Assembly: GCA_963930775.1 (NCBI GenBank)
Contig: OZ005690.1
Location: 13,232,411 to 13,296,410 of the forward strand
Length of the DNA: 64,000 bases
Source: Cliona cf. orientalis
Taxonomy: Eukaryota > Porifera > Demospongiae > Clionaida > Clionaidae
Direction: 5' to 3'
Shown: positions 3,196-16,351 of the stretch, piece after piece
Layout: the number at the start of each line of letters is the position of its first letter
Position numbering within the stretch: the first letter of the stretch is position 1
Position numbers and translations under genes: made by a program
The notes under the pieces: generated by a model
Seen by the model: the letters and a program-made list of their open reading frames with translations, nothing else
Told to the model about the DNA's origin: nothing
Database searches by the model: none

Positions 3196-3586
3196 GTGAG
3201 TTACAGTAGCGGTCAAAAAAAAGTTGCCGTTTCCGTTCCGTTCCGCAACCGTTCTACGGAAATTAAACGCCCTCGTGAACGTGCACTGAATACGCACAAC
3301 AAGGGAATGTACCTAAAACGGAAATTACTCTTGCACGCGTGCGCAGGCACCCCGTTTAGATTTGTGCATGACTGCGCTGCACGCGTGCAAATGGCCTTAC
3401 GGAAGCACTACTCAATCGCTGTCAAACTACTACTCAACTTTGCACCTGTCTGGGTATTTAAATTAGTACATCTCAGTATCAACAACACTACTCTCAAAGG
3501 ATCTAGTAAACCACTTCATCATCCCCACTCAAGTCTCAAAGGATCCAGCAGACCACTTCAACATCACAGCTAGCAGCTTCACAGAG

Positions 3587-5731
3587 ATGACCCTCAGGAC
3601 TCTCTTGGGTACCAGCACAGTGGCGTATCCAGAATTTGAAGGAGGGAGGTGCTAGTTAGATCGCGCGCGAAGCGCGCGCGCAAAATTTTTAGCCACGCCC
3701 CCCAAACGTTGACCACGCCCCTCATTTACGCGTTCTTGCTGACAAAGAAGGCTGTTTTAGGCCTAGTGGCGATGAGAAAACGCCGTTTAAGGAGCGAATT
3801 TTAGAGGTCAGTAAGTTTATTGTTGGTAGGAGCTGCCAGTTATCGAATATCATTGACAGTATTTGTCACTGAGGTACTGAGCTGGCTGTTGTGCCAGAGC
3901 TGAGGGGGGTGCTCCAGCACCCTGAGCTCCATGCTAGATACGCCAATGCAGCAACAGAACCAACAATGGTACACTGTAGTTTCTGGGTGACTGAACATGC
4001 TTACATGTATCTTCCAATGTACATGTACATGTAGGTGTCTACTACTTGATCAAGTGGTTGGATGAAGATAGGGAATCCATTGTTCCCTGGACCAAGATAG
4101 TGAGACCAGCACCAGCAGACAGAGTAGTTGGTACTATGTGCTCTGTGAAGGGATTTGAAAAGCACCTTTCCCAAATTGTGGCAATGGGTTAGTGGTCTAT
4201 TTTATGCTTGAATATCCTACACCTGTACATGTACATGTATGTTAATTTACATGTGTGCATGTTAAATTTTAAGGTACAAAGGCTGAGATAGAGGAACAAT
4301 TGGATGACAGGTGTCCTGATGCTCCCCCAAGAAAGAAAGCCAAAACAACCAAGGAGAATAAGGCACCTAAGACACCCATCCGTCGGCAGAAGAAAACAAC
4401 AAAGAACAAGGAAAAATCTAAAGGTAAAGGATTTCCATACGAAGAGTCATGTACATGTTTAGAGCTGATACATGATATGACATGTACTTGACTGTAATTA
4501 ATTTTTCCCACTCAGCTGCAAAGAAACCAGGAAACATCATTACTATCACTGGAGGACAGTGTGTTGGCCCTCAACCAACTGCACCCACACCTGAGACATC
4601 TGCTTCCCTTCAAACAACTGCACCTACATCTACATCTACTGGCCTTCCACACTCATCTTCATCAATTGTGCCACAGAACACAGACATAGGCAGTACCAAC
4701 CCCATGAATATTCCTCCACCTGACGACAACTGGTATGAGAACGAAGAGGTTCCACCTCTACCACCACCAATGCCACCACTGGGCCCAATCCCCTCACCCG
4801 TGGCCCCACCCAGCAGCAGTGTCCCTCTCCCCCCACCAGTGCCACCCAGCAGCCATTCTGCTCTCCTCCCACCACTGCCCCTCAGTAGTGGTGTTGCTCT
4901 CTCCCCACCTAACAGCAGTGTTGCTCTCACCACACTCAGCAGTAGCATCCCCCTTCTGGTAAGAAGCATGTACATATACATGTAATAATTACTATTATGA
5001 CCCCTTATGTGTGTATTACTATTGTACATTGTATTACAGATCCCTTGTATCTGGAGGTGACATTGCAGGAGTATGGTACACGGCTGGATAAGTTGGAAAG
5101 TACCATGGAGGCTGTCTTGGAGAGATTGACAAACATTGAAGCAAGTCTTCTCAATGTCTCTCAAGCTCCACCACCACTGAGCTTAGCCAACCTACCACCG
5201 GTACCACCCAAGAGGCATACGCTTTCTTCAAGCCCTCTACCACCCAGATACGTGGATACTACATGTATCACATCTCCACCTCCACCTCCACCACGAAGAA
5301 AAACAGCTGTACCTACTCCCAAACGACTACCAAGCCAAGCACTAGCTTCCACACCATCAAGTAGCAAGCAAAGCTTTTCTAAGGCACTACCATCTTCAGC
5401 AATAAACAAGGACATATTGACTCCAGCAAACTTGGTGATTCAACAAAATCAAGGGCTTGCTGGTAAGGAAGGTAAAATGGGCACATTGGCTCAATTGCTT
5501 GCAAAGGAGAGCTTTTTCGGTGAAGACGTGATGGTGCAATGCACTACCTATGGATATGGAGGAAAGCCTGGCCTGCCCAAGAAAGAGCTAGACGAGCTAA
5601 AGGAGACCGTGAGATCTTTATATCCTAAGTATTGGAGCGCACCTCATGATTTTGAGCTGGCATGGAACAAATGTACAGAATCGATGAGTCAAGCCTGCAA
5701 TCGACTAAGGGCAAAGCAGAAACAACTTTAA
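3587..5731 (+). CDS. BEN-domain protein carried by transposon copy 1
   Basis: The gene has five exons: 3587-3617 plus 3954-3968 (one exon split by a nested insertion), 4035-4187, 4274-4423, 4516-4958 and 5069-5731. If the nested insertion is ignored, the phases join without a stop to give about 484 residues. Exon 2 encodes a YYLIKWLDEDRESIVPW-type module also seen in copy 2. Exon 3 is Lys-rich (nuclear-localisation-like). Exon 4 is Pro/Ser-rich and disordered. Exon 5 starts with a short coiled coil (LDKLESTMEAVLERL) and ends in a BEN domain of about 100 residues (TLAQLLAKESFFGEDVM ... LYPKYW ... CRL-type end). BEN domains bind DNA or chromatin proteins. The role within the transposon is unknown; regulation or target choice is a guess. 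Confidence 0.72.
3618..3948. mobile_element. Nested hAT-like MITE inside exon 1 of the BEN gene
   Basis: The ends read CAGTGGCGTATC (3618) and GATACGCCAATG (3948), nearly perfect inverted repeats. The 5-bp sequence CAGCA is duplicated exactly at 3613-3617 and 3949-3953. CAGTGGCGTA-type ends and short 5-8 bp duplications are typical of hAT-superfamily non-autonomous elements. Removing the element and one CAGCA restores an open exon 1 whose phase fits exon 2. Confidence 0.8.
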
Positions 5732-5977
5732 CTGTCCAAGGCAAAAGCATGTATACATGCACATTGACTTTAAACATTATAATATTATTGTACTAGTACT
5801 TATGCATCTCTACACTGTACATACACATGTTACTATGGTAACCTTTTAATTAACCCACATGTATTTAAATTTTACCATTGTAAAGATCATGAATGGTTTG
5901 ATAGCTGAATGAACAATCTAACTCAAACATACATAATAATTAAGGTACAATGTACGTGTGTGATACAAAAATCAAAT

Positions 5978-7097
5978 TCAGTAGCCAGTGGGCTCACCAT
6001 TTAACTCTATCACTTTAGGGATTACTTTTTTAAGATGATTTATGTACCTATTACATTTCTCAACTGTGACAGTTTCCCAAAACTTGCTTATCCCATCAAC
6101 AAGCTCATCTTTGGTTCTTGGTTTGACTTCCCTACGTATAAATTCCTTCAATTCATGCCATAAGTTCTCTATTGGGTTCATGTCTGGTGATTCAGCGGGA
6201 GTCTTCCACCAATTTACACTGTTGTGATTCAGGAAATCTCTTCCATGCAGTGATGTATGCTTTGGATCGTTGTCTTGCATGAAACGGTGGCTGGATGGGT
6301 ACACTTGCTGGATGAATGGGAGTAGAGTCCTCTCTAAGATGCTGGTGTACAAAAATCTCTCCATGATGCCCTCGAAGATACAAATCTGAGTTCTACCTCG
6401 TCTGCTGATGCCAGCCCACATGTGAACTTTCACAGGATGTTTGGCCCTATACATGTACATGAAACCAACAGATATGTATCATGTGTAGTAAACCCCAATA
6501 GTATATTGTAGTTGCATGTACATGTATCTTTCATATGTACACATACACACTTGTATTGACTTACCGAGGCTTTAGTTTGGGCCGTTGTCCAAGCTTGCGA
6601 CAACAGAATCTTCTGTGATTCTGTAGCTGTACCGTGCATTCATCAGTCCAAATTACATCTTCAAAATCATCATCAGCATGTTGGATGGCCCACTCCCGGC
6701 GCTTCACCTTGTTGGCATCACGGATCAATTGACAGTACGCACTTCCCCTGAAAGTCCAACCGAGAGAAGTGCGGCATCTGAGGACAGTTCGCAGCGAGAC
6801 ATCATAGCCACTGTCATTAATCATTCTGTGTAGCTGGTAAGCCGTAGTCTCATCATCACTTTGCATCTGCTGCTCCACTAGCTCCTTTATTTCAGCAGTT
6901 ATCTTGGAGATTCGCCCTGACCCTGGTCTTCGTCTGATGCTTCCTGTTGTGTGGTATACCTTCAGAAACTTAGCAATCCCATATCTTGACACTCTTATCC
7001 CATCACTTTCACACAGTAGCTTTGCAATAGTGTAAGGCTTGTATCCCTGAGAGTGGTATCGAAGGATCCTTAGCTTCGTGTAAGAGCTGTATACCAT
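5978..7097 (-). CDS. Tc1-type DD34E transposase, intact, copy 1
   Basis: There are two exons on the minus strand, 7097-6565 and 6446-5978, separated by a 118-bp intron (donor GTAAGT, acceptor TATAG). Together they make 1002 nt, 333 residues, with no stop. The N-terminus is a helix-turn-helix DNA-binding region (TKLRILRYHSQGYKPYTIAK) followed by a second one (ELVEQQMQSDDETTAYQLHR). The catalytic triad is D in IWTDECTV, D in MQDNDPKHTS and E in NPIENLWHEL, with exactly 34 residues between the last two (DD34E, as in Tc1). The length and motifs are normal for Tc1. The intron is unusual for this family. The gene is convergent with the BEN gene and probably mobilises the whole element. Confidence 0.9.
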
Positions 7098-7816
7098 CTA
7101 CAAATGTAGAAACAAATGTATATAATTCTACTGTGTTTGTAGTCTAAGATGCATGAACGCTAACAAGAAAGAGGCAGCACTGAACAAAACCATCAGTTTC
7201 ATGCATATTATTACAATGTACACTTACCTTGATCATAAAATGCCAGTACTGTACTATAGGACCTGTGAGTATGCATTTCAATAAAATATTTAATGATACA
7301 GAGGGTAGCTACATGTAGGAAAGTTGTGACTGTATATGGATGTACCTGCCAACTTGAAAGAGTACCACTTCAAATTTGATAGCTTGAGTCCTGGTTCAAA
7401 GAGTTTAGCACTTCAATTTCAACACCTTGTTGGCTACAGTTGGGACTTCAGATTGTAGACAAGCACTCCAGCTGATGATCCTTCTAGGCACAACACTGAG
7501 AGCCACGTAACAGTCCAACAGTCGATCTTCCAGTGTTTAGGGAATCCCCAAGTCACACGTACAGCACAGCTGTTCAACTTGAGTGTGAGTGCAACCACAA
7601 AACTGCTTACCCAGTGCACGCGCACGGAAATGGAAAAGGCCATGAAACGGTATGGGCCCGCGCGCACGGGCGCTTAGCAAACGGAAATGGTCTGCAATGC
7701 GGAAATTAATACGCGTGTGCAAGCGCCCATAGAACAGCGTTGAACGGAACGGAAACGTCAACTTTATTTTGACCGCTACTGTACATGTATTGAAGCATAG
7801 CTTGTGTACATAATAG

Positions 7817-12055: not shown

Positions 12056-12316
12056 CAGTAGCGGTCAATAAAAAGTTAACGTTTCGTACCATTCCCACGA
12101 TCATTCGAGCGTAGCAACGAAATCGTTTTGTCACCGTCTGTTCTTCTCCTTCGTCTGCATAAAAACGATAGTGTGCTTAGCTCGCGTGGCACATATCATG
12201 TTAATACGTACTGACTGACGTAACATAGAACGGTATGCGCATGCGTGTACGCTCGTACGCGTCAGTCCAATAGCCCAACCTACAATGATTAAAAATTCAT
12301 TCGAAGTGTGAAAACG

Positions 12317-13457
12317 ATGGTGTTCAGTACCTAAAAGAAGCAACGTATTCTCCATTTTGCATCGCTAGGGCTCAAGCCTCCTACCATCGCGAAGGAGCTA
12401 GAAAAGGAAAAGTTGAAGTGTTCGAGAGTCGGTATCTACAAGTTTTTGAAGCATTACTGTGCAACGGGTTCGATGGGGAGAAGAGTTGGCTCGGGAAGAC
12501 CGTCTAAAGTAACAGCCGAGATCAAGCAAATAGTAGAAGAACAAATGAGGCTTGACAACGAAACGACAGCTCACCAATTGCACCGGCTATTGATCGAGAA
12601 AGGCTATTCAATCAGCCTGAGAACAATCCTCAGATGCCGGACGGCTTTGGGCTGGACCTTTCGAGGCAGCGCCTATTGTCAACTGATTCGCGAGGTGAAC
12701 AAGGGAAAGTGACTGGCTTGGGCAAGAAACCACCTTCACGATTCTTTTGATGACGTTATTTGGAGCGACGAGTGCACTGTACAAATGGAGAGCCATCGAC
12801 GATTTGCCTGCCGAAAGCGAGGAGAGGCCCCTCGTCCAAAACCCAGGTACCTGACAGGGTACATGTACATGTACACGTACATAGAGCATGTGCACTCCAA
12901 AGCTTAATAGTAGTACAGTACATAATATCATAGGCAAGTAAAATAGTTTCTTGTGTACCCAATAATATACATGATTGTATATCCCTTTTAGACCCAAACA
13001 CCCAACTAAGGTGCACGTGTGGGCCGGTATATCGAAGAAAGGAAGGACTGGAATATGCATTTTTGAAGGGATCATGAAGGAGCTATTTGTGAGCATCCTC
13101 GAGGGCACGCTTGTACCATTCATCACCGATGTTTTTCCTGAAGAGCACAGATTTATGCAAGATAACGACCCGAAGCACACGTCTGGATACGCTGCCGATT
13201 GGATGAAGGACAATTCCATCAATTGGTGGAAGACCCTAGCCGAGTCACCAGATCTCAATCCTATTGAAAACCTCTGGCATGAGCTCAAGGAATTCATTCG
13301 CAGGGAAGCCAAGCCGACAACTAAGGACCAACTAATTGAAGGAATAATACGATTTTGGAGAACTGTAGATATAGCTAAGTGTTTAAAGTACATAGGGCAT
13401 CTGAAAAATGTCTTGCCTAAAGTCATAGAATTAGAGGGAGCTGCAACAGATTATTAA
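12317..13457 (+). pseudogene. Tc1-type DD34E transposase, copy 2, with two nonsense codons
   Basis: The exons are 12317-12846 and 12992-13457, with the same intron position as copy 1 (the R before PKHP/AKHP). Total 996 nt. The frame keeps D in IWSDECTV, D in MQDNDPKHTS and E in NPIENLWHEL, spaced 34 apart. TAA at 12332-12334 (sixth codon, where copy 1 has Tyr) and TGA at 12710-12712 interrupt it. No frameshift is seen. The rest is about two-thirds similar to copy 1 by eye. It was once a functional transposase. Confidence 0.88.
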
Positions 13458-13677
13458 TATTATTTCTGATGTATATTATGTGCTATTTTGTTAATTACAA
13501 CCTTTACCTTGAACTGGAGATGTATGGATTATGTTACACTATTGTGTTTACCTACATTAATTTTACTCATGCCACAATGTACATATACAAACCTAACTAG
13601 ACCAACATGGCTAGGAAAAAAATATCATTACATTATGTACATGTAGACATTATGTGCTTAACTTTGAGTGTACACTA

Positions 13678-15736
13678 TCACTTAGCGTCCCTACGAAGTC
13701 TTTTGCATCCCTGCCCGATAGACTCAGTGCACTTGGTCCACAATGGCTCAAACTCGATAGGAGAATTCCAGTATCCAGGAAATAAAGTCAATATCTGATT
13801 CTTCAGAAGTTGTACTTCATGCTCCGGAAGGCCTGGGAGTTCTCGGTCATCTGCAACAGTACACTTAAGCATGACAGCTTCACCAAAGAACGATTCTCTC
13901 GCTAGTTTGAGTGCTAGTGTTGATACTTTACTCTCACAAAGTAGCTTTGGGTTTCTGTCAATGACCACCTTAGCTGGTACAAGTTTTGTATGGTCAATTG
14001 CAGATGATGGTAGACATTCTTGAGGCTTTGAACGCTTCCCTCTTCGACACGAGGTTGCTCGAGCCTCTGTTCCAAGATCTTGCGAATTAAGTGGCCGAAA
14101 TGGAGGACGATACGGTGTATTCTGTTGAGAGAGATGGGATGAGTTAGACTGTAGACCAACTGCATGGTTCTCATTGCTGATTGGTGATAGTGGCTGTAGA
14201 AGCTGTGACGACTGGGTTGGTGCTGGCTCTTCTGATGAATGTGGTAGCACCAACGGTTGCTGGGCTGATGGTGGATGAACTGCAGTATGGCCTTGCTCTA
14301 ATATAGTTACTCGGTCAATAAGTTCCTGAACCTCCATCTCTAAGGTTAACGTATTCACCGATATGCTGTCATCATTGCAGTTGTCTCCAGCATACAAGTA
14401 TTCCTGGTCAAGATCTTTCTCTAGCTGTACTTCTTTGTGGCCCCTCTCTTTCTCTGGCGATACAGCTCAGCCAGACTCCGTGCTGCTCTGCTCCTGTGCC
14501 TGTTGTTTGTGGCCCCTCTCTTTCTCTGGCTGTACAGCTCGGCCAGACTCTGTGCTGCTCTGCTCCTGTGCCTATTGTTTGTGGCCCATCTCTTTCTCTG
14601 GCTGTACAGCTCGGCCAGACTCTGTGCTGCTCTGCTTCTGTGCCTGTTATTTGTGGCCCCCCTCTTTCTCTGGCTGTACAGCTCGGCCAGACTCTGTGCT
14701 TTGATCACTATCTGACTCGTGGTGTGAGACTATCTGAATGCTTAAATTTTATATGCAAAAAATACAAAATTAATGTACATTCAATAATATTATGGTACAC
14801 AGGTGGTATAGGGGGCAAACATACCTTCGGGCTTTTGTCTTTTCTTTGGAGGCTTCACAGTTCCACCTGCTTCTCCACTACCAGATTTCTCTCTTGGCCT
14901 TTTCCTAACTACATTTATAATAAAACAAAGTGTAGTGTGATTATGATCATGAAGGTGTACACATAAGTTATAAAACAATCACACAATAAATGTACATGTA
15001 CATATACTACATGTACATGTGCTTAAAGTTTTGACAACACAACTTGCCTTGTTTTTTGTCAGCTTTCTATTTGGCACCATCAGTACTCTGCTTTTTGTTA
15101 GTATTCCGCCTGACACCACCACTATCAGCATCATCACCATCACCAGCACCCATCAACACCAGCATCAGCCTCCTCGGAATCTAGACATACAATGTACGTA
15201 ATATTATAATATCATCTACAGTGTAACAGTGCACGCACATGCACTCAAGTCGGTAAAAACAACATATAAACTATATTTGTTCATATGTACATATATGTAA
15301 TTATGTACCTTGTTCCTTGTTTCCTTCCATTTCACTCAATTGCTTCTCAATATCCACTTTGCTGCCAACAGCCACAACTGTTCCAGAAAAACATTTCAAT
15401 CCTTCCTTGATTTGTACGGTTTGGCTAGCCGAGCATTCCTTTGCGTTCACAATCTTACTTTCAGCCACCACACTATATGAGCTCTCCTCGGGCCAGGACA
15501 CCAGGTAAAAGCGTTCTGTAATAACAAGTTGTTGATCATACGTTTGCCAACCTACATGTATATGTATATGTACACGCACATACTGCCCTTGGTAATATGT
15601 ATAGCTAAGATAATACAGCTGCTCATGCAATAATGGCCTGTAAAGGCTGATGGATATTAACAAACACTCTTGCCCACCCCTCCAGATACTTACTCTTCTT
15701 CTCCTGAAGGTCCTTGAGTCTCTTTCGTAATGCCAT
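13678..15736 (-). pseudogene. BEN-domain gene of transposon copy 2, broken
   Basis: The minus-strand exons are 15736-15694 (MALRKRLKDLQEKK), 15515-15309 (FYLVSWPEESSYSVV, the same N-terminal module as copy 1), about 15183-15047 (degenerate, trinucleotide-rich), 14908-14825 (basic, RKRPREKSGSG) and 14729-13678. The last exon ends in a BEN domain (STLALKLARESFFGEAVML ... LFPGYW). The coding frame is interrupted in exon 3 (frameshift plus TAG) and by TAA (14647-14649), TAG (14572-14574) and TGA (14467-14469) in a tandem repeat. From 14397 downward the frame is open. It is homologous to the gene at 3587-5731, with the same convergent placement. Confidence 0.75.
14433..14707 (-). repeat. 72-bp coding tandem repeat, about 4 copies
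   Basis: Units start at about 14461, 14533, 14605 and 14677, each exactly 72 bp (24 codons). In the gene's frame, judged by joining to the exons on both sides, the unit reads ...SGRAVQPEKERGHK... and has acquired three stops. Another frame (SLAELYSQRKRGATNN) stays open, but it does not join the flanking coding sequence. Confidence 0.8.
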
Positions 15737-16351
15737 TGCCAGTCAGTGACAAAACAAGATGTAGACCGAGGTAGCTGTGGCAGAAGAATGACTAGCAGAG
15801 CACAATGATCAAAGAGAATAAAACGCAGCTGTAGCAGAAAGACGATGATTATCAGAGAGCACGATCGTTCCGAAGTACGACTGTCTGGTTCGAGTAGCCG
15901 CTTTTTAACAACTCCAAACGTTCTCACCTCCTGTTAAAACAGTCGTGACCTTTGCTACATACTGCATGTGCATATCGTACCGTATTCCGAATAATCGCAT
16001 GGTCGTTTCCGGTTCATTTTTTTAGAAAGCACGAATCTTTCAACGATCGTAGAACGGAAACGAAACGTTAACTTTTTATTGACCGCTACTGTAGGTAAAG
16101 TGTCATCGATCGCACATGCATAATAATATGCGGCACACAGATATAGGAGTGAGCAAGCAAAGTGAGCTCACTCCTTGTACTTGGATATGCATGTGGGAGA
16201 AATCCATGGATAGTCAGTATATTGATTGTCAGATTATTGGTTAGCTTATTCCTGCATGCGTGAGAAGAGAAGTGAAGAATCTTAAGTTTCTCTGAATTAT
16301 TAATGTTTTTGTACATATAATATATCATGTCTGGGCCATCCCTACTTATAG

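Follow-up and report, generated by a model that had tools for sequence, protein, structure and literature searches.

Does a BEN-domain gene found between the ends of a Tc1/mariner transposon belong to that transposon, or is it a host gene held there by accident? The question is raised by a stretch of 64,000 nucleotides from the sponge Cliona cf. orientalis (assembly GCA_963930775.1, contig OZ005690.1, positions 13,232,411 to 13,296,410 of the forward strand), the whole of which is referred to here as the window. Tc1/mariner is the textbook one-gene transposon, a feature thought to explain its free movement between hosts and its use as a tool. In the window, an element of 4,578 bp (3204-7781) carries a transposase gene on the minus strand and a BEN gene on the plus strand, convergent and arranged tail to tail. 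We conclude that the BEN gene belongs to the transposon as a stable component and is not a host passenger, because the two genes are paired throughout the genome, share element ends, move as one unit, appear constrained and jointly diverged, and are paired in distant relatives as well.

The window element is delimited by terminal inverted repeats (TIRs) of 40 bp, matching at 95% in the alignment of the ends (3204-3243 on the plus strand and 7742-7781 on the minus strand), and a TA target-site copy was read on each side (3202-3203 and 7782-7783). The terminus CAGTAGCGGTC... begins at 3204 and its inverted counterpart ends at 7781. The initial annotation of this locus, made from the letters alone, had placed both genes tail to tail within one such pair of repeats and TA sites, and this layout was borne out.

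The transposase gene is split by one intron. Exon 1 (6565-7097, minus strand) encodes a putative paired-like helix-turn-helix (HTH) region and the first catalytic Asp, while a domain match and motif reading place the DDE_3 domain and the DD34E motif in exon 2 (5978-6446, minus strand). Joined (7097-6565 and 6446-5978), the exons give 1,002 nt in a single frame of 333 amino acids without an internal stop, so that the intact, intron-bearing DD34E transposase proposed at the outset stands. The DDE_3 match has an E-value of 5.6e-13; matches to HTH_32, PAX and Tc3_2 are all under the cut-off in the window element, and HTH_32 is above it in a related locus, L045. Spacing between D and E is 34 residues in 17 of the 26 tail-to-tail loci read, these being the ones where the motif was read, and the transposase of a distant relative, L046, matches the Sleeping Beauty structure 5cr4 (E 3.1e-23). 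With a DDE_3 domain of this spacing, TIRs and TA duplication, the lineage belongs in Tc1/mariner. Having the transposase as the only gene, which is typical of the superfamily and does not define it, is not found here, as the BEN gene lies inside the TIRs.

Five exons, all on the plus strand, make up the BEN gene, and their inner borders are all AG/GT. Exon 1 (3587-3608) was inferred from splice signals and frame. It is followed by exon 2 (4035-4187), with a conserved N-terminal domain, a Lys-rich exon 3 (4274-4423), a Pro-rich exon 4 (4516-4958), near whose 3' end aligned sister copies are longer, and exon 5 (5040-5731), with the BEN domain at about 5510-5704. This domain matches PF10523 at 27.2 bits, over the curated cut-off of 23.2. 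The joined exons amount to 1,460 nt, with the frame broken at the exon 4/5 junction and stops beyond it; opposite the gap in the window copy, sister copies have 261, 151 and 160 letters. Thus the annotated five-exon structure and its domain are retained, but the reading frame is lost at one junction, and the BEN gene of the window copy is not clearly intact. The exon 2 domain recurs in other BEN/transposase elements and, judged by pattern alone, may be an SH3/Tudor-like barrel; Pfam gave no match for it and solved structures none of weight, and a profile search of solved chains for the BEN domain returned 0 matches. Outside the Cliona genome, 13 protein relatives of BEN (34-72% identity) and 1,631 of the transposase (E<=1e-20) were found, as proteins without genomic context, and searches for related loci in viral and prokaryote collections gave none.

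Searching the genome (216.8 Mb) with the ends of the window element as queries revealed three further copies having both ends, at C1:15856622-15861077, C2:6672355-6676303 and C1:1724874-1729676, although the left end of the C2 copy matches from base 13 only. Where they align, all three share 95-97% identity with the window copy; they match both genes, with stops or frameshifts. A wider search, in which the protein queries were the BEN exon and exon 1 of the transposase, gave 84 BEN matches and, with 150 of 168 candidates scored, at least 135 transposase matches; these were merged into 76 BEN and 108 transposase places. For 54 of the 76 BEN places, a transposase place is found no more than 6 kb away in tail-to-tail orientation. 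The pairing had been expected to prove real if many copies kept both genes between the same ends; many do, and the window element is a member of a large, old group of two-gene Tc1/mariner transposons.

For a genome-wide count, BEN places were raised to 118 by adding PF10523 matches and matches to the distant L046 BEN protein, and pairs were defined by one-to-one matching of BEN and transposase places no more than 6.5 kb apart. Of the transposase places, 55 are near full length (150 or more of 178 residues covered, identity 32-100%), and 50 of these have a BEN partner. By identity class, 31 of 34 are paired at 50-100%, 7 of 7 at 38-49%, and 12 of 14 below 38%. With fragments included, 81 of 108 transposase places are paired (56/68, 11/19 and 14/21 in the same identity classes), as are 81 of the 118 BEN places, leaving 37 unpaired. 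Uniform placement would give 0.76 pairs by chance among all 108 x 118 places. At the level of Pfam, 25 PF10523 matches in the genome exceed the cut-off and 22 of them adjoin such a transposase; of the three unpaired matches, one copies the BEN frame of a transposon at 99%.

Of the near-full-length transposases, five stay unpaired. At C4:5611805, a BEN place is present tail to tail, 8.0 kb off. The place at C14:4983269 seems to be one half of a split pair, since residues 149-178 are found at C14:4969436, adjoining a BEN place; the apparent separation of this transposase by about 14 kb (C14:4968026-4983718) is probably due to a nested insertion. A third, C7:5417835, is L048, a remnant that resembles part of L024 at 88-89%; it breaks off in the second exon and has no trace of BEN. 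The other two, C15:2808249 and C17:3238085, show 33-34% identity and have no explanation. On the BEN side, ten BEN-like places cluster at C6:0.16-0.94 Mb, with 36-42% identity to the L046 BEN protein and no transposase match near; they may represent a different mobile family or an array of host genes.

Gene order differs with transposase divergence. In the class of 50-100% identity, the 31 paired near-full-length places are without exception tail to tail. The 38-49% class has three tail-to-tail places and four, at 41% identity, with BEN upstream on the same strand (group B, which includes L045, L047 and L049). Below 38%, BEN lies downstream on the same strand in nine and tail to tail in three. 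L046, of the same-strand kind, lies within its own TA-flanked ends, matching in 21 of 22 bases, and has uninterrupted frames of 349 codons for the transposase and 427 codons for the BEN-domain protein, with the likely N-terminal domain in a separate upstream frame. As the pairing is kept in several gene orders, the association outlasts rearrangement of the element; one ancient pairing and repeated captures both stand as readings of its origin. In group B, the BEN frame of L045 (C4:4.0 Mb) holds long Gln/Ser-rich repeats; L047 is located at C14:6.09 Mb.

Movement of the two genes as one unit was assessed in the 26 tail-to-tail loci. Matching TA-flanked ends enclose both genes in 13 of them and a degenerate inverted repeat does so in four more (L010, L017, L021 and L035); no enclosing ends were found in the remaining nine. 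The 13 elements have TIRs of 35-74 bp at 84-100%, and TIR-bounded elements measure 3.9-4.8 kb; the ends taken for L019 are the second-best candidate, and the right end of L025 differs in its first base. Elements L026 and L027, on different chromosomes and in unrelated flanks, differ at 2 positions over 4,115 bp (TAs included). Near-identity of this kind implies recent activity in which both genes moved together. Empty sites are consistent with it. L026 sits in a repeat, two best copies of which run unbroken across the TA at 93% (40 of 330 candidates scored, the flanks of L026 itself being two of the 40). L030 sits in another repeat, with two best copies across the TA at 95% (scores cover 40 of 162 candidates, the flanks of L030 itself included); there the match extends no further than 11 bases beyond the TA, where the layout of the repeat changes. 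In all four empty-site copies aligned, a single TA is present. The pair L020/L025, having flanks in common at 98-99.5%, is a segmental duplication and was therefore dropped as evidence of movement.

These observations exclude an arrangement that would have undone the initial annotation, in which BEN is a host gene flanked by two insertions: near-identical units in unrelated flanks (L026/L027), together with the empty sites of L026 and L030, rule it out. Copies with the same ends and no trace of BEN would have been equally damaging. The only ones found are miniature inverted-repeat transposable elements (MITEs), which lack both genes, and the broken remnant L048; among the loci read, there was no transposase-only copy with clean ends. 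MITEs were found for two of three single-end loci, L013 (5143-5711) and L014 (C10:4332193-4332757), and L015 was without a partner end. They are 565-569 bp long, gene-free and TA-flanked, with 28 of 28 end bases matching, and at least 38 near-complete matches to them occur in the genome (40 of 193 candidates scored). Because both genes are missing from them, MITEs do not weaken the pairing.

Both genes look constrained in protein sequence and appear to have diverged in step. A GY codon model on 12 of the 26 loci, with stops masked and some of the 12 not fully intact, gave a nonsynonymous to synonymous rate ratio (omega) of 0.045 over 115 BEN codons and 0.054 over 331 transposase codons, values that are rough because synonymous change is saturated. 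In the close family of L032, L033, L034 and L036, the pooled ratio of nonsynonymous to synonymous differences per site (pN/pS) is 0.30 for BEN and 0.32 for the transposase. The comparison of Ka/Ks between the genes, suggested with the annotation, thus points to constraint on both. Protein distances of BEN and transposase correlate (Mantel r 0.59, with 0 of 9,999 permutations as high) over 17 of the 26 loci, one per close family, with L021 left out for having too few BEN codons. Codon trees of the two genes agree on the main groups, not on every branch, and BEN is the faster-evolving. This constraint and joint divergence support the proposal that the element makes use of its BEN protein, but the role itself we infer.

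Our reading, to which we give a probability of about one half, is that this is a two-gene Tc1/mariner lineage in which BEN is a permanent accessory gene, its protein binding the CpG-rich ends and so aiding assembly, escape from silencing, or both. The DD34E transposase would cut and paste the element at TA. A protein composed of a small N-terminal domain and a C-terminal BEN domain would bind CpG-rich DNA at both ends, where it may help to bring the ends together, keep them free of methylation or silencing, or both. Precedents for this model are TnpA for En/Spm and RAG2 for RAG1. The BEN protein is thus probably an accessory factor acting at the ends, and such binding would be the most economical mechanism since human BANP and BEND3 favour unmethylated CpG motifs (PMC11472053).

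CpG content was compared in 10 elements, chosen so that each close family among the 14 with ends is represented once (L009, L011, L025 and L027 were left out), using 345-bp subterminal stretches with the TIR excluded. The observed/expected ratio is above that of the element's own interior in 20 of 20 stretches (0.57-1.67 vs 0.29-0.55), and above its flanks in 17 of 20. Relative to the window's background (158 tiles with a median of 0.59 and a 90th percentile of 1.09), 19 of 20 ends are over the median and 15 over the 90th percentile. In the window element, the left subterminal stretch (3259-3603) has a ratio of 0.79, vs 0.29 in the interior.

Several observations weigh against this reading. 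Three of the 20 ends (both of L019 and the left of L036) are not above their own flanks, and the two ends of the window element are ordinary for the window, 38 and 40 of the 158 background tiles being as high, and stay short of the 90th percentile. CpG richness may mark only promoters, because tail-to-tail elements have both of their promoters at the ends; the only features that argue otherwise are a promoter-free end of L046, at the 3' end of BEN (ratio 1.40), and two gene-free MITEs (1.52 and 1.36). Subterminal 7-mer repeats are inconsistent: with the TIR left out, there were 6 of 10 elements in which no more than 5% of shuffles reached the top count, the only striking repeat is in L024 (9 copies, 0 of 500 shuffles), and element interiors hold repeated motifs too. 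Family-specific subterminal repeats as BEN sites, a candidate weakened once the TIR was excluded, are not claimed. MITEs match L036 over the terminal 46-74 bp and nothing further at E<=1e-5, so recognition may need no further sites; the MITEs suggest that little beyond the TIR need be common for movement. As for selection, the omega values rest on saturated synonymous change, masked stops and data with broken copies among them. In the window's own family, pooled pN/pS is 0.57 for BEN and 0.70 for the transposase, and pairs without the frameshifted L011 range over 0.12-0.54 and 0.28-0.80; with ranges that weak, constraint is not clear in this family.

Two other functions for a transposon-borne BEN protein were considered. 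It could be a self-limiting repressor at the element's own end promoters, keeping transposase low and sparing the host and so the element. BEN domains occur in chromatin-silencing and gene-repression factors (PMC9579193), and in tail-to-tail elements the two genes begin close to the element ends. Copies escaping such a repressor would easily lose it, yet only 5 of the 55 near-full-length transposases have no BEN within 6.5 kb, and for two of those five BEN lies further off; we therefore consider repression unlikely. Doubtful, too, is a tether that would direct the integration complex to chosen chromatin with the N-terminal domain as reader, in the way that the PHD finger of RAG2 reads chromatin. 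A second conserved domain is there, and its similarity to the N-terminus of the distant L046 protein is weak (hhalign score 23.2, probability 46%; maximum 16.1 in 200 target shuffles), but the lack of a Pfam or weighty structural match noted above speaks against this function.

The remaining explanations deny BEN a role. Transposons do capture host genes, and 37 of 118 BEN places have no transposase match nearby, as would suit a passenger captured by chance; the deep genome-wide association, constraint, joint divergence and the small number of unpaired Pfam-level BEN matches make this very improbable. That separate transposons lying side by side, or segmental duplication, mimic a two-gene element has a basis in L020/L025, which is such a duplication, and in group B. 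There, element ends were looked for and not found, no TIR turned up in L045, a 44-bp inverted repeat at 84% falls outside the stretch common to two copies, and the two of the four places that were compared have more than 5 kb in common (with gaps). The unrelated flanks of L026/L027, the empty sites and the recurrence of such ends across many families reduce this explanation to a negligible one.

Some further features of the window should be mentioned. BEN intron 1 of the window element contains a nested, non-autonomous hAT-like insert of 331 bp (3618-3948), bounded by CAGTGGCGTATC/GATACGCCAATG and with a 5-bp duplication, CAGCA; it is absent from all three sister copies. By eye, a repeat flanking L026 resembles this insert. 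A second two-gene element occupies 12056-16091, with 50-bp TIRs at 86% and TA flanks; its transposase exons are at 12317-12847 (2 stops) and 12999-13454 on the plus strand, and BEN is at 13681-14340 on the minus strand. A lone TIR-like sequence of another subfamily, CAGTAGGAGGCATAAAAACGG, was seen near position ~17143, upstream of the second element.

A long-lived branch with a near-constant DNA-binding partner of chromatin type suggests that some Tc1/mariner elements need a second protein or benefit from one, and it offers a testable case of how a transposon manages methylation or assembly of its own ends. BEN-bearing transposons also offer a mobile source for BEN-domain regulators, the origin of which is, to our knowledge, an open question. 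As a speculation that we hold at long odds, BEN proteins could have begun, or spread through animals, as Tc1/mariner accessory proteins reading unmethylated CpG at element ends; several animal BEN regulators, BANP and BEND3 included, would then be domesticated partners, and nearly all Pfam-level BEN genes of the Cliona lineage would still be mobile.

Among known systems, the Cliona elements resemble Tc1 and Sleeping Beauty in DD34E spacing, TIRs beginning with CAGT, TA duplication, and a putative HTH-like N-terminus joined with DDE_3, and differ from them in the second, conserved multi-exon BEN gene, the length of 3.9-4.8 kb and the transposase intron. RAG-like (RAGL) transposons use a transposase of another superfamily and a partner protein unrelated to BEN. 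They provide the nearest two-gene layout, a convergent transposase and partner gene inside TIRs (PMC7204232), as here. Tc1/mariner elements, in the words of one paper, 'typically encode only their transposase', and the same text presents the Oxytricha TBE elements as Tc1/mariner-type with accessory proteins under purifying selection (PMC12242761). An accessory protein is thus common to both; TBEs, as described there, have three open reading frames, with a zinc-finger/kinase partner and a 22-kDa protein without predicted domains, and no BEN is named, whereas the Cliona element has two genes and a BEN partner. Among the papers listed from one open-access library, by titles and abstract openings, no report of BEN as a gene of a Tc1/mariner element was found, and the ciliate TBEs were the only accessory-bearing Tc1/mariner elements met with. 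In En/Spm (CACTA), through TnpA, and in Ac, an element protein acts on CpG-rich subterminal DNA in a methylation-sensitive manner, a likeness in the way of working only, as proteins and superfamilies are unrelated. A BEN-like fold in the TnpA of Tn3 binds transposon ends (PMC9579193). With BANP, BEND3 and NACC1 the Cliona protein shares a PF10523 domain over the curated cut-off; these are host regulators, whereas the Cliona BEN protein is transposon-borne and has an N-terminal domain of its own.

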